From positions 1-60,271 of IMG/VR virus record IMGVR_UViG_3300032282_003042: a DNA stretch of 60,271 bases, one strand, 5' to 3'. The DNA is from a virus. Of this stretch, positions 1,217 through 9,890 are shown one piece after another (the stretch's first letter is position 1; each line of letters begins with the position of its first letter). Both the position numbers and the translations under genes were made by a program. The notes under the pieces are model-generated. The model did not search any database and was not told where the DNA came from. It saw only the letters and a program-made list of their open reading frames with translations.

Positions 1217-2149
1217 ATGTCTATTACAAACACCACATATAGAGTTTTTGTCGAAAAACTTGGAAATACAAACCCATCGCAATTTATTGGAAACGAAGGA
1301 GAAGTTTTCTACGACCCCGATGCAGTATCACCATCACTAAAGCTATCTAATGGTTCTACTCCTGGGGGAGTATCCTTTGCTGGTGGTGGAAGTGGTGGTA
1401 ATGCCAACACTGGAGATATAACTTTTAATGCAAATTATCTTGTAGGGACGGGTACTACTTATGGTGGTTCTGGTTTATTCTTTGCTCCTGGTCCAGATTT
1501 TGTAGATGCAGAGAACGAAATTTCAAACGGAACTCAATACGTAAGATTACGTGGTGGTGATACTGCATCCCACATACATTTTGATACTGCAGATAATAGC
1601 AGTTATGATTGGTATTTTGGTGATGATAGTAAATATGTGTTGTTATCTAAAGAAGGTGATATAAAAATTTCAGCTTCGGGTGCTGGTGGTAGTGGTAGAT
1701 GGAGATTTAAACAAAATGGAACATTAAATCTTCCTGGTGGGAGCGATGTTGGGTCTGGGTCTGGAACTTATTTAAGTTCTGTGGGCACAATTTGTAGAAG
1801 TTCTGGACAATCTCAAGTTACTATTTACACAGCAAGTGAAACATGGATGACTACGGTAAAATTACTCATACAAGCCGAAGGTTCAATCTCATCAGGTGGA
1901 TGGCAAACTCAAGCAACAGAACTATTAATAATTAAATCTGTAAATGGACCATCAATACAAGCATTCAAAACTAGTGACATCACTACTGGTGGTATAGACA
2001 ATGATATCTTCATATCAAATTATTTTGTGTCTTTAGTTGATGGAAAAATTACTGTAAATGCAGAACCCATCAATACTGGGCTGATCGATGGGATTAACAC
2101 AAATGTTTGTTTTGCAGTTTCAATTACTGAAATATATTCTAACGATTAA
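1217..2149 (+). CDS. Tail-fibre/adhesin-like virion protein
   Basis: The protein has 310 residues rich in Gly, Ser, Thr and Asn. Its N-terminal segment (FIGNEGEVFYDPD, then LKLSNGSTPGGVSF) resembles the repeat used in tropism-determinant and tail-fibre N-termini to describe a fibre head. A Gly/Ser hinge follows at residues 55-65. The remainder looks like beta-structured fibre domains (HIHFDTADNSSYDWYFGDD, SGRWRFKQNGTLNLPGG). No enzyme motif is visible. Composition and gene neighbourhood suggest a host-binding or virion surface protein; the exact location in the particle is unknown. Confidence 0.6.
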   Translation: MSITNTTYRVFVEKLGNTNPSQFIGNEGEVFYDPDAVSPSLKLSNGSTPGGVSFAGGGSGGNANTGDITFNANYLVGTGTTYGGSGLFFAPGPDFVDAENEISNGTQYVRLRGGDTASHIHFDTADNSSYDWYFGDDSKYVLLSKEGDIKISASGAGGSGRWRFKQNGTLNLPGGSDVGSGSGTYLSSVGTICRSSGQSQVTIYTASETWMTTVKLLIQAEGSISSGGWQTQATELLIIKSVNGPSIQAFKTSDITTGGIDNDIFISNYFVSLVDGKITVNAEPINTGLIDGINTNVCFAVSITEIYSND

Positions 2150-2182
2150 ACTAAATACTGATAAGTTTAAACTACCATTCTG

Positions 2183-2596
2183 ATGTCATTAAAAGATCCT
2201 TATATCTATCGTATCAAACAAATCACAAAAGTAATCGACGGAGACACAATTGATGCTGACATTGACCTTGGTTTTGATATCTCTCTCAGTAAGCGAATAC
2301 GTCTTGCTGCTGTTGATACTCCAGAGAGTCGCACAGCAGACGCAAACGAAAAGAAATATGGTCTCGAATCAAAAGAATGGTTGAAGCATAAAGTAGAGAA
2401 TGCCAAGAACATTCTAATCAAAACTGAGCTTCCAGATAGTACAGAAAAGTATGGAAGAATCATTGGTCATTTATTCATTAACGACCAAGAGACATCATTG
2501 AATGATCAAATGATTGTCGAAGGTTATGCTTGGGAATATGATGGTGGCACTAAGAAGAAAAACTTTGCTGAATTAGATGCTAAGCGTAAGAAGTAA
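2183..2596 (+). CDS. Thermonuclease-fold (SNase-like) nuclease
   Basis: This 137-residue protein carries the full staphylococcal nuclease signature: VIDGDT (D19, D21, T22), RLAAVDTPE (R40, D45, T46, E48) and YGRIIG (R92). These match the calcium ligands and the two catalytic arginines of the SNase family, so it should be an active Ca-dependent nuclease of DNA or RNA. There is no signal peptide, so action in the infected cell (host DNA degradation or DNA processing) is more likely than secretion. A CTAAATAC motif lies 24 nt upstream. The gene ends back to back with a convergent gene: its stop at 2594-2596 touches the opposing stop at 2597. Confidence 0.88.
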   Translation: MSLKDPYIYRIKQITKVIDGDTIDADIDLGFDISLSKRIRLAAVDTPESRTADANEKKYGLESKEWLKHKVENAKNILIKTELPDSTEKYGRIIGHLFINDQETSLNDQMIVEGYAWEYDGGTKKKNFAELDAKRKK

Positions 2597-3346
2597 TTAC
2601 TTACCCAAGTTATGCTGACGTTTCTTTTCTAGTTTAAATTCTTTTTTTAACTTCTTGGCAACTGCTTTCATCTGCTTATCTTTTTCAAAAGCAAAAAATA
2701 ATTGTAACTCATAGTCAGTTAAATCTTTGGATAGAAGTTTCTTACCACGAATCCAAAGTTGATTGGCAATTGGTTTAAAGAACTTCAACAGGAATTCCAC
2801 GGCAGACTTGCCTAGGAGCGCCGCCGCGGTCGCTGCCATCGCTGTGGTGCCTGCCAGTGCCACTTCCTTGTTTGTGGGCACTGGAACCGCTCCTAGGATA
2901 GGCACATGTATCTCTGCTGATATAGGTTTGTCTGTGGTTTGTTGGATATCAGTTGATTCTGATTTATCTTGTGATTGAGCAACTTTAATTGCTGGCATTA
3001 TTGGCGGAGGAGAATCAGGAAGTTTTCTTTCCTTTTCTTCTTTTTCGTGCTGTTCTTTTTGTTTTTCTGCTCGTACAGCTGCATCAAATTCTTCCTGTGT
3101 TGGTACATTAATCACAGGATATTTAATAGAAGGGTCTGGCGCCTCAAATACAGGAAGCGCCAAACCATTGGTAACAGGAACCTGAGTTTTAGCTGGCGGT
3201 AGTTGCTCTACTATAGTCGGGAGAATCCCCTGCACCGCATTCTGGGCAACCTTCGGTTGCTGTAGCGGCGATAGTTGGCTCGGTTGGAGCTGGGGTATCG
3301 ACGATGAATTCAGGTTCTGGATTCCTTCCAGTGGGTTTATCGGCAT
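2597..3346 (-). CDS. Conserved protein with Pro-rich N-terminus and hydrophobic segment
   Basis: The protein has 249 residues. The N-terminal third is rich in Pro, Gln and Leu. Next comes a highly charged helical stretch (AAVRAEKQKEQHEKEEKERK, residues about 90-110) and a linker. A hydrophobic helix of about 30 residues follows (VALAGTTAMAATAAALLGK), with a basic C-terminus. I recall this last part, starting PVPTNKEVALAG, in marine T4-like phages. GGGAGAA upstream of the ATG at 3346 supports the start, although the first 158 nt overlap the preceding gene in another frame. It is possibly a virion-internal or membrane protein; function unknown. Confidence 0.7.
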   Translation of the reverse strand: MPINPLEGIQNLNSSSIPQLQPSQLSPLQQPKVAQNAVQGILPTIVEQLPPAKTQVPVTNGLALPVFEAPDPSIKYPVINVPTQEEFDAAVRAEKQKEQHEKEEKERKLPDSPPPIMPAIKVAQSQDKSESTDIQQTTDKPISAEIHVPILGAVPVPTNKEVALAGTTAMAATAAALLGKSAVEFLLKFFKPIANQLWIRGKKLLSKDLTDYELQLFFAFEKDKQMKAVAKKLKKEFKLEKKRQHNLGK

Positions 3347-3515
3347 CTTCTTTATCTTCTCCCTTCTTCAATGTGTCAACTCCAAAGGTTGCTGCGGCAG
3401 CAGTGAATACTGTAGCAATAAATGTAGGGTCCATCTTAGCGAGTAGACCAGCATAACTAGCAGTGAGAAGAGCAGCACTCCAACTCAAAACACTAATCCT
3501 AATAATTGTGCTCAT
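3189..3515 (-). CDS. Two-helix membrane protein (possible holin)
   Basis: I chose the ATG at 3515, which has an AAGGA site 8 nt upstream; an ATG at 3542 is in frame with a closer site. The 108-residue product has two hydrophobic helices (ISVLSWSAALLTASYAGLLA and PTFIATVFTAAAATFG), then a charged, Pro-rich tail with a CxxC pair (GCPECG). Size, topology and position immediately after lysozyme fit a holin or lysis accessory protein, but no family signature proves it. The 3' end overlaps the next gene by 158 nt in a different frame. Confidence 0.7.
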   Translation of the reverse strand: MSTIIRISVLSWSAALLTASYAGLLAKMDPTFIATVFTAAAATFGVDTLKKGEDKEDADKPTGRNPEPEFIVDTPAPTEPTIAATATEGCPECGAGDSPDYSRATTAS

Positions 3516-3559
3516 ACATTTTTCCTTTTTGTTTTCGTTCATTGTCCTTTAACGTGAGG

Positions 3560-4231
3560 TTAACCTTTTTTCCAAGCTTCACCTTCTGCTTTTCTTCTAC
3601 GTGCTAGTCCTGCTTCTACATTTGAACCAGGATTTCTGTAGAGGTAAAGCGCATCAGGCACCTTATCCCATTCTTTATTTTTTAGAACACGAGTAATAGT
3701 ATTAAAATTATCACCACCATAAAAACCAGCGCCAAGATTATAGGCGAAAGAAAGTAGAGCACCTCTTTTACCATCAGACATCTCATTCCAGTGAGGAATT
3801 TTACGAAGTGCTGGTAAGAAATGTTTTTTTGCCTCATCAATCAGTAGCTCATCTGCTTCTGCTTGTGTGATGCTATCACCCATATGGAATGGCGAACCAT
3901 CTTTCTTGCGAGTGCATCCCCAACCAATCGTGATTGGCAGACCACCAGAAAGAGGGTCTGGATATGCATTCAATCTGCATCCTTCAAACTCTTTTACTAG
4001 TTTGATGCCCATTTGTGGAACATCATCACCACCAACTACGGGAGCGGCAACAGATGGTGCTGATGCTGGTGCCGCATTACCCTTTTTTCCTCTATAAATC
4101 TCCGCCCAATCAATGTTATCATCTAGATATTTGACTGGTAAATTATCTTCTAACCACTGAACAGCTTTAACGTGATTAGGGTTCTTCTCGTCGTAAAACT
4201 TGAAGAAGTTGTGTAAATCGATTCTTGCCAT
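3560..4231 (-). CDS. GH24-type lysozyme (endolysin) with N-terminal accessory domain
   Basis: This 223-residue protein hydrolyses the glycan strands of peptidoglycan. Residues about 75-223 are a lambdoid/T4-type lysozyme domain with the catalytic series E83 (KEFEG), D92 (YPDP) and T101 (ITIGWG). The family features LLSFAYNLGAG and GLARRRKAEGEAW follow. Residues 1-47 are a separate small domain (DLHNFFKFYD, VQWLEDNLP) also found at the start of the C39-like peptidase upstream. An Ala/Pro/Ser/Gly linker (residues 50-70) joins the parts. AAGGAG lies 6 nt before the ATG. There is no signal peptide, so release would need a holin, or the protein is virion-borne. Confidence 0.9.
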   Translation of the reverse strand: MARIDLHNFFKFYDEKNPNHVKAVQWLEDNLPVKYLDDNIDWAEIYRGKKGNAAPASAPSVAAPVVGGDDVPQMGIKLVKEFEGCRLNAYPDPLSGGLPITIGWGCTRKKDGSPFHMGDSITQAEADELLIDEAKKHFLPALRKIPHWNEMSDGKRGALLSFAYNLGAGFYGGDNFNTITRVLKNKEWDKVPDALYLYRNPGSNVEAGLARRRKAEGEAWKKG

Positions 4232-4249
4232 TGTTGTTCTCCTTAGTTA

Positions 4250-4921
4250 TCAATCAAAAATACGACCCCAACCATCGTTGCCACCTGGGCACCAACGATG
4301 CTTGAGCATTGCTTTTGTATAAATGGTCTTATTACCATTTGTTACTGGACCAGTATAGTTATCATTACATGAACCATAAGGATCATTAATAAAGTAACCT
4401 TTTTCATCTGGTGTTTTACCAATCACTACAACCATGTGCCCACCAGTAGGTGCAGATAAAGAACCACGGTGAAGGATACCAATAACGACAGGCTTCCCAG
4501 CATCGAGACTCTTATCAATATCAGCGAAAGAAAGATTGTAACTAAAGTGTGACTTAACACCATAACCCGCAAGAACCTTTGTCTGAACAGCATGGTCAGT
4601 GGTGTCGCCAATTGCAAATACTTTCTTAACATATTCGTCATCTCCTTTAATGCTTCCTGGCTTGAGGAAAGCAAGGCACATAGCACACGATGAACTGTTA
4701 CAAGTTCTATGTGCGTCTCTATAGTTATCTACTTGATTGAAATATGGAACTGCTAGAACTGCTGGTGTAGGTGGTTTAGTTCTAAAAATTCCAATCCATT
4801 CTGATTCTGAATCATCAAGGAATTGAGCAGGTAGGTTATCCTCTAACCATTGAACTGCTGCCACATGATTATCATTATTGTCATCATAAAATTTAAAAAA
4901 GTTATGAAGGTCTAACGTCAT
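4250..4921 (-). CDS. C39-like papain-fold peptidase with the same N-terminal domain
   Basis: The start is set at 4921 because GGAGATAAAA precedes that ATG and the product then begins like the lysozyme (MTLDLHNFFKFYD). Residues 1-47 are the shared domain. Residues about 55-223 are a peptidase C39-like domain: VPYFNQVDN, the nucleophile region TCNSSS (C74), the histidine region GGHMVVVIG, and FINDPYG for the acid residue. Such domains cut peptide bonds, and here the peptidoglycan cross-bridge or a phage protein are possible substrates. The gene overlaps the upstream nuclease by 20 nt and lies 18 nt before lysozyme, so both enzymes are probably made together. Confidence 0.82.
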   Translation of the reverse strand: MTLDLHNFFKFYDDNNDNHVAAVQWLEDNLPAQFLDDSESEWIGIFRTKPPTPAVLAVPYFNQVDNYRDAHRTCNSSSCAMCLAFLKPGSIKGDDEYVKKVFAIGDTTDHAVQTKVLAGYGVKSHFSYNLSFADIDKSLDAGKPVVIGILHRGSLSAPTGGHMVVVIGKTPDEKGYFINDPYGSCNDNYTGPVTNGNKTIYTKAMLKHRWCPGGNDGWGRIFD

Positions 4922-5255
4922 TTTTATCTCCGAATAAACGTATAAAGTACTCTGCGTCAACCACTGCTAGTGGTTTTTTTCCATTCTTTTTAATAACGAC
5001 AAGAGGTTCATAGTCACCAGAGTTGACAGATGCTTGTTCATAAGCATCCCATATATTTAGCTTCTCAACATTTTTACATTCAATACTATGAGGAAATTTT
5101 GACCTGGCTGCACGAGCCATGATAAGGTCTTCGCCACCTGCTCCCATGCTACGAGATTCAATATCTTCTGGATGAACTTCAAGCATCTCAATGAGTTTAT
5201 CTCTTACCCATTGTTGCAAACGGCGACCTTTCGCTTTTGCTGACTGTGGATTCAT
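4902..5255 (-). CDS. Small PD-(D/E)XK-like nuclease
   Basis: This 117-residue protein has a basic N-terminal helix (KAKGRRLQQWVRDKL), then RSMGAGGEDLIMA and SIECKNVE. The acidic residue after the glycines and the E-x-K pair (ECK) match the core of restriction-like PD-(D/E)XK nucleases, including small Holliday-junction resolvase-like phage enzymes. It is the first gene of the leftward lysis-module operon, and its ribosome-binding site lies in a hairpin overlapped by a late promoter. Substrate is unknown; DNA branch resolution or trimming during packaging would fit late expression. Confidence 0.7.
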   Translation of the reverse strand: MNPQSAKAKGRRLQQWVRDKLIEMLEVHPEDIESRSMGAGGEDLIMARAARSKFPHSIECKNVEKLNIWDAYEQASVNSGDYEPLVVIKKNGKKPLAVVDAEYFIRLFGDKNDVRPS

Positions 5256-5263
5256 AATAAAAA

Positions 5264-5287
5264 ACCTCCATATAGGAGGTATTTATC
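5264..5287 (-). promoter_or_regulatory. Late promoter GATAAATA overlapping an RBS-sequestering hairpin
   Basis: On the minus strand GATAAATA (5287-5280) matches the T4 late element. It runs directly into a perfect hairpin, ACCTCC-TATAT-GGAGGT (5280-5264). The downstream arm GGAGG is the ribosome-binding site of the nuclease gene starting at 5255. By T4 spacing the late start would fall near 5274-5273, within the loop, so late RNA would lack the ACCTCC arm. Read-through RNA would keep the hairpin and hide the site. Confidence 0.7.
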
Positions 5288-5290
5288 TAT

Positions 5291-5458
5291 TCAGTTGAAC
5301 CAAGGATCTGGTATTTTTTCAGTAGAATGTCTAATATCCATCTTTGTTGATGGTTTAGATTCTCTACATTTTCCTGTTGCTCCTGCAGTTTCTTTTGAAT
5401 GTTTTGAAACTTTTTCTTTTTCACAGTTTAAAACCAGCGAAAGTATCTTTTTTAACAT
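5291..5458 (-). CDS. Small ORF downstream of nrdB, 55 aa
   Basis: The ATG at 5458 has a GGAGG site 11 nt upstream. The ORF overlaps the 3' end of nrdB by 38 nt in another frame. The product (MLKKILSLVLNCEKEK at the start, KIPDPWFN at the end) has a short hydrophobic N-terminal helix and a polar, Lys/Ser-rich remainder with two Cys. No function can be assigned. Position, ribosome-binding site and filling of the gap before the lysis module support a real gene. Confidence 0.5.
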   Translation of the reverse strand: MLKKILSLVLNCEKEKVSKHSKETAGATGKCRESKPSTKMDIRHSTEKIPDPWFN

Positions 5459-6605
5459 CTTGTTTAATACCTCCAATGACATACGATTCTACTTCTGTTT
5501 CCTGTGGGGCAACTTGAAGACCTTTAGAAGATAACCAATGTTCGGTCCAAGGAAGTGGATTATTATTTAAAGGAACATCAAAAATAGGGTCAAGACCAAT
5601 CGCTTTGAGTCTACGATTAGCAATCCATTCTACATATTTTTGTAGCAATTTTGCATTTAAACCAATCATAGAGCCATCTTTAAATAAATATTCAGCCCAA
5701 AGTTTTTCTTCTTCAACACAATTTTTAAACATTTCATAAACTATATTTTTTTCTTCTTCTGCAATACGTTGCATATCATAATCATCACCTGCTTTCCATT
5801 TGTTAAGAATATTCTGAGTAATCACAAGATGCTGAGATTCATCACGAGCAATTAAACCAATGATTTTAGCGTTTCCTTCCATAAGTTTAAGTTCTCCGAA
5901 AGCAAATGAACAAGCAAAGGAAACATAGAATCTAATACCTTCAAGAATATTTACATTAGCAACAGCACGATACAGTTTACGTTTAAGATCATAAAGAGTT
6001 TCTTTAGCTGCAGGAACACCTTCTAATTGATGTTGCCATTGGTTACCAGCAGAATATTCTTGTGAAGCTTGAATGAAATCATCATATGCTTTAGTTACAC
6101 TTCGAGCACGTTGAAGAATTTGCTCATCGTGAATAATAGTATCAAACACTTCAGTTGGATCCGAGTAAACATTCTTAATAATGTAAGTATAAGAACGACT
6201 ATGAACCATTTCCATAAACTCCCAAACTTTTATACAAGCTTCCAATTCAGGAAGAGAACAATGAGGAGCAAATGCCATACTTGGTCCACGACCCTGAACA
6301 GAATCAAGAAGAATTTGGTATTTTAAATTGGAAGTAAAAATATGTTTTTGTTCGGGACGTAAAGTCTGATAATCTGCACGATCTTTTTGAAGAGACACTT
6401 CTTCTGGTCTCCAAAAATATCCAAGTTGAGTTTGAGTAAGTTTATCAAATACAGGATATTTGAATTGGTCATATCTTTGAACCCCCAAAGGGGAACCAAA
6501 AAACATTGGTTGTTTTAACGCATTAACAACTGATGTATTAAATACAGTCATGCCTTCTATTTTGGTCATGGTTTCGTCTTTGGTTTTAAATTTTACAACT
6601 GTCAC
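5421..6605 (-). CDS. nrdB: Ribonucleotide reductase class Ia, small (beta) subunit
   Basis: The product is orthologous to T4 NrdB. It holds the di-iron/tyrosyl radical needed by NrdA to make deoxynucleotides. The N-terminus (MTVFN, then PMFFGS, YFWRPEEVSLQKDR) matches the family. EMVHSRSY carries Glu, His and the radical Tyr in the E.coli-like spacing, and RDESQHLVIT supplies further iron ligands. The listed start is a GTG with GAGG 9 nt upstream, overlapping nrdA by 20 nt. ATG codons at 6569 and 6551 are alternatives, and the latter aligns best with T4 NrdB. The C-terminal tail ends KKDTFAGFKL, as expected for docking to NrdA. Confidence 0.95.
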   Translation of the reverse strand: MTVVKFKTKDETMTKIEGMTVFNTSVVNALKQPMFFGSPLGVQRYDQFKYPVFDKLTQTQLGYFWRPEEVSLQKDRADYQTLRPEQKHIFTSNLKYQILLDSVQGRGPSMAFAPHCSLPELEACIKVWEFMEMVHSRSYTYIIKNVYSDPTEVFDTIIHDEQILQRARSVTKAYDDFIQASQEYSAGNQWQHQLEGVPAAKETLYDLKRKLYRAVANVNILEGIRFYVSFACSFAFGELKLMEGNAKIIGLIARDESQHLVITQNILNKWKAGDDYDMQRIAEEEKNIVYEMFKNCVEEEKLWAEYLFKDGSMIGLNAKLLQKYVEWIANRRLKAIGLDPIFDVPLNNNPLPWTEHWLSSKGLQVAPQETEVESYVIGGIKQDVKKDTFAGFKL

Positions 6606-8895
6606 AATCTTCTTCCTCTAATGTCAATAGGTCGTTAATAAAATTATCATTTTTAGGTTCTTTTTCTAAAGCAATATCATCCTTTTTAGCATCATAAGTA
6701 TTTTGATAGTAAGAAGTTTTCCACCCATACTTATAAGTATTTAAGAAATCTTGAGCCATCACTGACACAGGAACTTCATTATCGGCATAATTTTCTGGAT
6801 TATACGACCAGTTTCCAGAAATCGCTTGATCAAAGAATTTTTGCATAACAGCAACAATATTAATATAACCGCTGTTACCAGGCATATCCCAAAGAAGCGT
6901 ATAATTGTTTTTAAGACTTCCATACTGAGGGACAATCTGCTTAAGAGGTCCTTTTTTAGACTTTTTAACAGACAAGTAATCTCTAGGTGGTTCAATTCCA
7001 TTAGTTTCATTTGATACTACAGAACTGCTTTCTGATGGCATCTGTGCGGACAATGTTGAGTTTCTGAGACCATGATTAAGAATAGATATTCTCAATGTTT
7101 CCCAATCATAATTTAAATTATTGGGAACGATTGTATCAACATCCTTTTTGTAAGTATCGATAGGAAGAATACCATCAGAATACTTAGTACGATCAAAGTA
7201 TCCACAACGTCCTTTTTCTTTGGCAAGTTCATTTGAAGATTTTAGTAGATAGTATTGGAATGCTTCTGTAAGATCATGAACTAATTGCCATGCTTTAGGA
7301 TCATCATAATGCTCGCCATGTCGAGCCAAGTAATGAGCGAGACCAATATAACCGATTCCAAGTGAACGACGATTTTTTGTGGATACTTCAGCTGCTTTGA
7401 TAGGATAATTTTGGTATTCAATCAATTCATCCAATCCACGAACAGAAAGATCACAAAGATCTTCTAGTTCATCAAGATTTTTCAATTTACCAACATTAAT
7501 AGCAGACAAAATACAAAGAGCAATTTCACCTTCACCATCAATATGCTGAATAGGATCTGTCGGAAGAGTAATTTCTTGACACAAATTACTCATATTAACT
7601 TTATCTTTAAATGATGAATGAGAATTGCAGTGGTCAATATTCATAATATAAATACGGCCTGTTTCAGCACGTTCTTTTAAAATACCAAGAATTAATTCTT
7701 GAGCACTGATTTGTTTGCGGGGTATTGAAGTATTTGATTCGTAAGAGATATACAAATTATCAAACTCAGGAGTCCCAAAAGCATCATACAGCCCAGGGAC
7801 ATCATGAGGAGAGAATAAAGTAATTTCTTGATTAGAAATGAATCGTTCATAAAAAATCTTCGAAATTTGAATAGAATAATCGAGTTTGCGTACACGATTA
7901 TCTTCCGTTCCTTTATTGTTTTTTAATACAATAATATCTTCTATCTCTTGATGCCAGATTGGGAAGTGGACTGTCGCACTTCCTCCTCGTATACCATTTT
8001 GCGTACAACAACGGACAGTTGCTTCAAACTTTTTGAGAAACGGTATAACTCCAGTGTGAGCCACTTCACCCCCTCTAATTTTGCTGTTGACACCACGGAT
8101 TCTACCTGCGTTAATGCCGATGCCTGCCCTTTGAGCAACATACCTACCAATAGCCATGTCGCTACTGAAGATGCTATCAAGGGTGTCATCAGAATCAACC
8201 AACACACAACTAGCGAATTGCCTGAGAGGTGTTCTAACTCCCGCCATGATAGGGGTCGGAATGTTGATTTTGTGTTTGGATATGGCATTGTAATAACGTC
8301 GAACGTAATCTAAACGAGAAGTTAATGGATAATCAGCAAACAAAGTTACTGCAATCATCATGTACATATATTGAGGAGTTTCAAATACTTCATTATTACT
8401 CCTATCTTGAACAAGATATTTGTCAACTACTTGTCGCAACCCCGCATAAGAGAATAGATAATCCCTATCATGATCAATCCAACTATCAATTTTAGCCCAA
8501 TCTTCATCAGTATACTTATCTAAAATTTCCTCATCGTATACTTTTAGAATTGTCGAATTATATAAAGCTACGTCGTAAACATTTGGCATTCCATCTTTCC
8601 AAATATTCTTGTGGAAAACTTGTTTTCGCAAAGAAAATAACAACAAACGTGCAGCTACATATTGATAATTTACATTATCCAAAGAAATAAGATCGCTAGC
8701 AGAACGAATCAAAATTTCTTGAATTTCTTCAGTTGTAATATTATCATAAAATTGTATACCAGAATTCATTTCTACTTGAGAAGAAGAAACTCCAGCTAGT
8801 CCATCACATGCTTCATCTACCATACGATGAATTTTATCTAGATTAAGTGGTTCGATAGAACCGTCACGCTTAGTAACTTTAATCCCGTTGCTCAT
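6586..8895 (-). CDS. nrdA: Ribonucleotide reductase class Ia, large (alpha) subunit
   Basis: The product reduces ribonucleoside diphosphates with NrdB and so supplies dNTPs for phage replication. The N-terminal 90 residues resemble an ATP-cone (VTKRDGSIEPLNLDKI). The catalytic region contains FASCVLVDSDDTLDSI and NMSNLCQEITLP (active-site Cys and Glu), and QMPSESSSVVSNETNGIEPP follows. The C-terminus ends CDSC, the redox pair re-reduced by glutaredoxin or thioredoxin. The start at 8895 overlaps the primase stop as ATGA and has GGAAG upstream; an in-frame ATG at 8907 has no such site. Coupling with primase and nrdB makes a DNA-synthesis operon. Confidence 0.96.
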   Translation of the reverse strand: MSNGIKVTKRDGSIEPLNLDKIHRMVDEACDGLAGVSSSQVEMNSGIQFYDNITTEEIQEILIRSASDLISLDNVNYQYVAARLLLFSLRKQVFHKNIWKDGMPNVYDVALYNSTILKVYDEEILDKYTDEDWAKIDSWIDHDRDYLFSYAGLRQVVDKYLVQDRSNNEVFETPQYMYMMIAVTLFADYPLTSRLDYVRRYYNAISKHKINIPTPIMAGVRTPLRQFASCVLVDSDDTLDSIFSSDMAIGRYVAQRAGIGINAGRIRGVNSKIRGGEVAHTGVIPFLKKFEATVRCCTQNGIRGGSATVHFPIWHQEIEDIIVLKNNKGTEDNRVRKLDYSIQISKIFYERFISNQEITLFSPHDVPGLYDAFGTPEFDNLYISYESNTSIPRKQISAQELILGILKERAETGRIYIMNIDHCNSHSSFKDKVNMSNLCQEITLPTDPIQHIDGEGEIALCILSAINVGKLKNLDELEDLCDLSVRGLDELIEYQNYPIKAAEVSTKNRRSLGIGYIGLAHYLARHGEHYDDPKAWQLVHDLTEAFQYYLLKSSNELAKEKGRCGYFDRTKYSDGILPIDTYKKDVDTIVPNNLNYDWETLRISILNHGLRNSTLSAQMPSESSSVVSNETNGIEPPRDYLSVKKSKKGPLKQIVPQYGSLKNNYTLLWDMPGNSGYINIVAVMQKFFDQAISGNWSYNPENYADNEVPVSVMAQDFLNTYKYGWKTSYYQNTYDAKKDDIALEKEPKNDNFINDLLTLEEEDCDSCKI

Positions 8896-9890
8896 ACTTT
8901 CTTCCATTCGATAAGTTTAACTTTTGCTTCTAAACCATGATAGGTATTACTCTCTACCATATCCTGTACATCATATCCAGCCAACACCATATCATTGATA
9001 TCTTTTTCTTTGATATGAGAATCCCATATAACTATTTTTTCTCCAGCATTAATTGTTTTTGTGTATTTGTCAACAATTTGTTTGTTTCTTGGTTCGTTGT
9101 CGAAAACAAATGTACGATCAGGAAACAATAACCTGTCAAGTACAACGTCACTGCCACACATTGCAATGCTGTTTTCAATAAACATAGAATCAAATGGCCC
9201 TTCAGTAACATAAACATTTTTTGCTGGATTTACACGATCTAATCCAAATATTTTTGGCTGATCTTCATTTAACATAATAGTAATATATCTTAATTTGGAG
9301 TTTGGTATCAATGATCTCCCCTGAAAACCAAACATATTTCCTTCTTTGTCCTTGAGTGGAATAATAATTCTGGGACTATCTTTTCTCAAAGTGTCAAATA
9401 TTTTGATTTGAGAATTGGTCCATTCTTTAAATTTTGGACAATAATAAAAGTAATCTAAATCTTTAATTTTTCTACTTTCCAAATATTCCCTTGCTGGGTG
9501 TGTAATATTTAGTTGAGAGATCTTTTCTAAATTTTCAGTATTTTTGCGTCTAGAAGAAAATTTAGGTTCTTGAAAATTAAATGATGGATTTGGCGTTTGA
9601 GTTCCTTTGCCAGTCAACCCTTCTTTATAACGCTCAAGAAGATATTGATCATACAAAATAGAATTTTGATCTTTTAAAAAATTAGTGAATGTTCTTCCAA
9701 TACCACAATTATGACACTTAAAAACCAAATCATTTTTAATTTTAAAAATATATCCCCTAGCTTTATCTTGACGTTTTTTGCTATCTCCGCAATAAGGACA
9801 ACGAAAGTTATAAAGTGATTCTTTTTTCTTCGCAAACTTTTGAAGTTGGGGTGATATTAGTCCAACGTACTTCACATCAATAAAACTCAT
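8892..9890 (-). CDS. 61: DNA primase, T4 gp61 type
   Basis: This 332-residue primase makes RNA primers with helicase gp41 for lagging-strand synthesis. It begins with a four-Cys zinc ribbon (C31, C34, C59, C62: CPYCGDS and CHNCG) that reads the priming site. The middle TOPRIM-like core has VYVTEGPFDSMFIENS (Glu of motif I) and a later acidic motif around FDNEPRN. It is the first gene after a strong host-type promoter at 9919-9947, so it should be expressed early, with nrdA and nrdB coupled behind it. Confidence 0.93.
   Translation of the reverse strand: MSFIDVKYVGLISPQLQKFAKKKESLYNFRCPYCGDSKKRQDKARGYIFKIKNDLVFKCHNCGIGRTFTNFLKDQNSILYDQYLLERYKEGLTGKGTQTPNPSFNFQEPKFSSRRKNTENLEKISQLNITHPAREYLESRKIKDLDYFYYCPKFKEWTNSQIKIFDTLRKDSPRIIIPLKDKEGNMFGFQGRSLIPNSKLRYITIMLNEDQPKIFGLDRVNPAKNVYVTEGPFDSMFIENSIAMCGSDVVLDRLLFPDRTFVFDNEPRNKQIVDKYTKTINAGEKIVIWDSHIKEKDINDMVLAGYDVQDMVESNTYHGLEAKVKLIEWKKV

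Follow-up and report, generated by a model that had tools for sequence, protein, structure and literature searches.

A probable T4-type late promoter nested in a terminator-like hairpin between the nrd and lysis genes of a T4-like cyanophage relative

The window, by which we mean the whole 60,271-nucleotide stretch analysed here (the complete IMG/VR virus record IMGVR_UViG_3300032282_003042), represents a relative of the T4-like cyanophages, and its nrdB-to-nuclease portion is 74.6% identical to that of S-PM2. The host group of this virus appears to be marine cyanobacteria. On the minus strand, nrdA, nrdB, and a short open reading frame (ORF) run straight into the element described below, with a terminator-like T-tract lying between them and a gene for a RusA-like nuclease, which is followed by the genes of a C39-type peptidase and a phage lysozyme (Table 1). 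Neither the short ORF nor the nuclease has a Pfam match. Judging by the promoter box in the element, the nuclease, C39, and lysozyme genes would be expressed late.

Table 1. The element and its neighbouring genes, in window coordinates.
Feature	Position	Strand	Basis
nrdB, upstream gene whose transcripts would enter the element	5421..6605	-	PF00268, E 3.3e-55
Short conserved ORF, ~45 aa, GTG start overlapping the nrdB stop	5287..5424	-	Same frame open and recognisable in L123 and L126
T4-type late promoter box GATAAATA (consensus NATAAATA; -13 to -6)	5280..5287	-	Consensus in S-PM2 (PMC2984593)
Hairpin ACCTCC-TATAT-GGAGGT, 5' arm being the promoter-to-start spacer	5264..5280	-	Folding; compensatory stem changes in relatives
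CCTCC 5' arm	5279-5275	-	A5280 lengthens the arm to ACCTCC
Loop TATAT	5274-5270	-	Read from sequence
Predicted late transcription start	5273..5274	-	T5274 by the -13/-6 rule, A5273 as nearest purine; T4 spacing (PMC1524935, PMC2988020)
GGAGG Shine-Dalgarno (SD), core of the hairpin 3' arm	5265..5269	-	Sequence; opening-cost prediction
T6 tract, making the hairpin intrinsic-terminator-like	5259..5264	-	Sequence; d score 8.6 to 12.0
Nuclease start codon ATG	5255-5253	-	ATT between T6 and ATG
RusA-like nuclease, 117 aa	4902..5255	-	PHROG 244, E 6.9e-22
Gene of a C39-type peptidase; overlaps the 3' end of the nuclease gene	4250..4921	-	Peptidase_C39_2 PF13529, E 1.9e-13; phrog_10051 endolysin
Phage lysozyme gene, after a short gap	3560..4231	-	PF00959, E 3.9e-22

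Read along the minus strand from 5287 to 5253, the element is GATAAATA-CCTCC-TATAT-GGAGG-TTTTTT-ATT-ATG, set in a context that reads ...ACTGAATAGATAAATACCTCCTATATGGAGGTTTTTTATTATGAATCC..., and the G of the short ORF's TAG stop (5289-5287) is also the first base of the promoter octamer. By itself, GATAAATA occurs in the window at chance level (8 observed, 7.3 expected), and its count was dropped as evidence for that reason. The composite ATAAATACCTCC-N3-8-GGAGG, however, is found once in the window and in none of 100 shuffles, while a looser composite (TAAATA, a stem of at least 5 bp, and ATG) likewise has a single occurrence, where shuffles average 0.013 and 4 of 300 contain any. The composite element is thereby confirmed as real beyond chance, unlike the octamer alone. 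A search of Rfam returned no family at the element, its sole match being a sub-threshold chance one inside the nuclease gene, and a promoter consensus scan placed sigma-70-like sites at background (27 vs 23.3).

The octamer agrees with the cyanophage T4-type late promoter NATAAATA, of which Aeh1 has a CTAAATA variant. What differs is the segment directly downstream, as T4 late promoters are AT-rich just 3' of the box (PMC2988020), whereas here such a segment is not present and four of the five spacer bases (CCTCC) are G or C. In fact, among 56 promoter-like sites in the window and S-PM2, only this element and its S-PM2 counterpart have four or more G/C in the spacer. The GC-rich spacer fits selection for a hairpin arm, and the promoter may be weaker as a consequence.

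Because the T4 late box spans -13 to -6 (PMC1524935, PMC2988020), we placed +1 at 5274, with the purine at 5273 as the neighbouring candidate. Here, the octamer (5287-5280) is so located with respect to the 5' arm (5280-5275) that late RNA from the predicted start would omit this arm altogether. The stem is short (6 bp with four G-C pairs, -9.2 kcal/mol), yet the hairpin forms part of the minimum-energy fold of the read-through RNA. For an RNA beginning at 5420, the predicted cost of opening the SD is 10.2 kcal/mol (10.2-10.7 over the read-through range), and its unpaired probability is close to zero, as compared with a predicted 1.9 kcal/mol for an RNA beginning at 5274 or 5273. A sequence-only reading of the locus had proposed a late-promoter octamer running into a hairpin that hides the nuclease SD, a late start within the loop by T4 spacing, and C39 peptidase and lysozyme genes close behind. 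The octamer was confirmed at 5287-5280, and the downstream genes are as described, with C39 overlapping the nuclease and lysozyme after a short gap; the SD masking and the loop start both find support as predictions from the opening costs and from the absence of the 5' arm in such an RNA. That reading was silent on two features, namely the T6 tract behind the hairpin and the TAG stop overlapping the octamer.

T4 gene e and I-TevI are established cases of a late promoter combined with an SD-hiding hairpin (PMC3014915, PMC2988022). T4 gene e reads TATAAATACCTTC...GGAGGTATT-ATG, and our IMG/VR scan for ATAAATACCTCC-N-GGAGG returned T4-type gene e alongside the nuclease studied here. The two share the order of parts, with a TATAAATA box, a 5' arm occupying the gap to the start site, an SD in the 3' arm, a start codon next, and a lysis gene downstream, although in our case the nuclease comes first and the lysis genes second and third. 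In terms of sequence, a gene e-like mode of working is well supported. Comparable leaders precede I-TevI, I-TevII, I-TevIII, segB, and Aeh1 mobE, whose late RNA is unable to fold the hairpin that blocks the SD and which, as nuclease genes within early or middle units, lie partly near nrd genes (PMC2988022). The I-TevI-type genes are homing endonucleases, however, whereas the gene here is RusA-like (PHROG 244), and the text consulted (PMC2988022) describes no terminator role for those hairpins, whereas the present hairpin scores as a terminator.

The element also has the attributes of an intrinsic terminator, in that a GC-rich stem (6 bp, where 5 suffice) runs into a T-rich tract and the d'Aubenton-Carafa-type score is 8.6 to 12.0. 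The score is positive in all tested nuclease-locus relatives as well, but strongly negative for T4 gene e (-64) and its relative L008 (-54); gene e lacks a T-tract and hence is no terminator. No other minus-strand site between the nrd and lysis genes (2000-9000) resembles a terminator as well as this element does, and its tail is T-rich on that strand and poor on the plus strand. Given the T6 tract and the terminator score, which set it apart from gene e, read-through RNA may mostly stop at the hairpin rather than continue untranslated. While the GC-rich stem and T6 closing an operon are as in any intrinsic terminator, the element departs from that type in that its 5' arm is a late-promoter spacer, its T-tract abuts a start codon, and one class of transcript would start inside it.

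This bears directly on whether the element could be a pure translational switch of the gene e type, for which read-through would continue, the hidden SD would silence it, and the T-tract would be a mere AT-rich leader. The matching order of parts in gene e and its relatives, the precedent just cited, and the strong predicted occlusion of the SD all speak for such a switch, but the T6 tract past the stem scores as a terminator where gene e is negative, and relatives with exchanged arms (described below) retain the T-tract and lose the SD. Moreover, the hairpin with its tail, ACCTCC...GGAGGTTTTTT, is common in viral contigs, where, if TAAATA is missing, a start codon follows in just 11 of 114 cases, as expected of a terminator at a gene end. 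Overall, we regard the purely translational switch as unlikely. As for the proposal of a gene e-like switch in the sequence-only reading, the order of parts and the predicted SD occlusion stand, while the terminator score of the T6 tract has no equivalent in gene e; similarly, its silent read-through RNA agrees with an SD that is predicted to be paired, except that this RNA may mostly terminate at T6 instead.

To follow the element among relatives, we examined 374 nuclease loci, which gave 234 distinct upstream sequences. In 72 of these, TAAATA leads into a hairpin with its 5' arm starting at the box, and a start codon soon follows. The other 162, mostly in other gene contexts, are without the element as scored. 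Most of the relatives in these counts are non-independent. The loop begins 4-6 nt past TAAATA in 54 of the 72 and 8 nt past it in a further 13, so that spacing is conserved. In 68 a purine occupies the predicted +1 (the sixth nucleotide past TAAATA); exceptions include the window and L134, which have T and then A at this position. An SD-like 3' arm is kept in 63 of the 72. Across 32 aligned elements, TAAATA is invariant (32/32) while the arm sequences vary, and both ATAAATA and CTAAATA forms are encountered. Stem variants with compensation include CCTCC/GGAGG, CCCCTA/TAGGGG, CCTTC/GAAGG, and CCCC/GGGG. In the 28 distinct unswapped sequences, to which the pair counts are limited because MAFFT does not align the stems when normal and swapped arms are combined, 92.9% of the helix cells are paired (37.7-57.1% in slid controls), and 10 cells changed on both sides. 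Two of five covariation measures for these 28 sequences (the number of pairs with two-sided change and further pair types) did not exceed shuffles, and the compensation thus rests on few independent changes.

A lysin homologue lies downstream in about 36 of 60 element-bearing loci, these being the ones with enough sequence, and in about 16 of 140 loci scored as lacking it; PHROG 591 was not counted as a lysin, and since the loci are related the comparison is descriptive.

In S-H34, S-N03, S-B68, and S-CREM2, the two arms are exchanged, giving GATAAATA-GAGGGG-ATAACA-CCCCTC-TTTTTT-ATG and similar forms, and the element stands ahead of the same nuclease and endolysin genes. The 3' arm in this group is CCCCTC or CACCCTCT, neither of them an SD, though the box, spacing, pairing, and T-tract are all kept. 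It follows that SD hiding cannot be the conserved function, and that this function can instead be a terminator which late RNA escapes by starting inside it. The expectation in the sequence-only reading that the dyad and the late element are retained in related phages is accordingly borne out by the 72 distinct relatives and their compensatory changes, but not as regards the SD arm, which is missing from the swapped group.

Beyond the nuclease loci, the promoter box, terminator-like hairpin, and start codon are linked across many phages, and many of the genes that follow close variants in related viruses look late. Scanning IMG/VR for swapped-form sites gave at least 78 distinct ones, and, among the matches listed, 77 of 78 have ATG or GTG 0-2 nt past the T-tract and the sites stand ahead of at least 61 different protein N-termini. 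As a control, the same swapped-type hairpin without TAAATA lies ahead of a start in 10 of 119 cases. Likewise, for T5-tailed hairpins in the nuclease relatives and S-PM2, an ORF start follows in 41 of 44 whose 5' base bears TAAATA and in 9 of 72 others (Fisher p ~6e-19, kinship ignored). The genes 5' of the swapped-form sites include, among the matches listed, psbA, psbD, and those of large structural-type proteins, and in S-RIM50 the element comes after psbD and ahead of a gene that carries the annotation major head protein. The tie to a lysis module in the sequence-only reading does not hold up here, with the same module found ahead of structural-type and other genes, and we rejected a lysis-specific reading as a general rule. 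Single genomes contain few copies, S-PM2 having two clear ones and S-CREM2, within its first 100 kb, one, and hence the module is widespread over phages without being frequent in each. A second family near lysis genes, PHROG 3316 (S-PM2p161), has a swapped-arm hairpin at a late box, TAAATA-nn-GGGGAG...CTCCCC, ahead of its start, with no SD and a weak T-tract.

These comparisons also allow two further explanations to be weighed. The element might be an ordinary terminator of the nrd operon, with TAAATA as an A-rich flank and the nuclease expressed by leak-through or from another promoter. Terminator features are indeed present, A-rich 5' flanks are common at terminators, and some relatives show pairing of AAATA with the tail's TATTT; against this, a start codon rarely follows such hairpins lacking TAAATA and nearly always those having it, TAAATA stays invariant though the arms change, and a purine predominates at the predicted +1. 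An ordinary terminator is, in our estimation, very unlikely. Alternatively, the dyad could serve as an operator in the DNA or as a stem stabilising the 5' end, in which case RNA would start upstream and a protein or the stem itself would regulate the nuclease. The combination of a nuclease gene and a promoter dyad does recall I-TevI, which represses its own late promoter (PMC2988022), but the arms change freely, even in polarity, with pairing kept, and the design recurs ahead of many unrelated genes. The operator reading was rejected on account of this free variation of the arms, and as for a 5' stem, RNA beginning at 5280 would leave the SD closed, with a predicted opening cost of 9.4 kcal/mol. 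Taken as a pair, the operator and 5'-stem options seem to us very unlikely too.

We therefore propose that the 35 bp are probably nested punctuation, in which a T4-type late promoter lies inside an intrinsic terminator and SD hiding has been added in this lineage. The stretch separating the -10 box from the start would double as the 5' arm of the terminator, with the next start codon directly past the T-tract. RNA from the nrd operon, holding both arms, should terminate at the T-tract, and whatever reads past it would have its SD paired and be poorly translated. With a gp55-type polymerase present, RNA would instead begin in the hairpin loop (5274/5273) and supply the nuclease, C39, and lysozyme genes with a short leader. 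Such late RNA would be neither terminated there nor SD-hidden, because it lacks the 5' arm.

As to the T4-like cyanophages at large, we lean slightly towards a general module that closes one transcription unit and opens the next within ~30 bp, from which late RNA escapes, and in which SD hiding is the addition of one lineage. If true, one short DNA element would perform three jobs, the same bases serving to space the promoter, to form a terminator arm, and, here, to mask the SD. This would also explain how early operons (nrdAB, perhaps psbA/psbD) are kept from feeding lysis or structural genes without intergenic space, and it predicts early RNA ends and late RNA starts that would be readable in any end-mapped cyanophage time course. 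The idea of gene e would, moreover, extend to cyanophages, including S-PM2, which a T4 review of such leaders lists with syn9, PSSM2, and PSSM4 as without an apparent gene e (PMC3014915). We found no published description of such a promoter-in-terminator module in a search that covered the open-access literature only, and which does not of itself establish novelty.

Several other arrangements were noticed in the course of the comparisons. At 12410-12365 of the window (minus strand), a terminator-like hairpin, AAGGAGACC-AAAAGTAA-GGTCTCCTT, has a T-tract leading directly into a late box TATAAATA (12372-12365), and so terminator and late promoter are fused in the order opposite to that at 5287. 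In many element-bearing loci, such as Sf-FR1 (L002:3640-4314) and its relatives, the gene after the nuclease belongs to PHROG 591, which by eye has an HExxH motif together with a likely signal peptide, and is possibly a different lysis enzyme. Upstream of the nuclease in a clade made up of L152, L173, L184, L194, L197, and L201, the sequence reads GATAAATATnTT... and weak AU-rich pairing replaces the GC-rich hairpin, still ahead of the same C39-lysozyme genes. S-CRM01 (L213, upstream of 2489) and L380 have, behind the late box, a hairpin (AACAGTATG/CATATTGTT) that reaches as far as the start codon; SD and T-tract are both missing. The PHROG 3316 site of S-PM2 (L001:6892-6923; 117799 in S-PM2) has homologues in L143, L160, L197, and others, with the genes concerned lying downstream of the lysins. 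In Synechococcus phage MA01, a homing endonuclease (L444, 1800-2504) is inserted between the element and the nuclease; the element persists upstream, and the ATG past its T-tract now opens a frame of just two codons. In L582, L641, and L642, GAGGGG...CCCCTCTTTTTT-ATG lies behind a TATAAT-like sequence in place of TAAATA, hinting that sigma-70-type promoters may likewise be nested in terminators. Lastly, a gene of S-CREM2 (L567:7704-10313) is annotated as a Cas9/Csn1-type endonuclease and virion protein, as far as the annotation goes, in a cyanophage.
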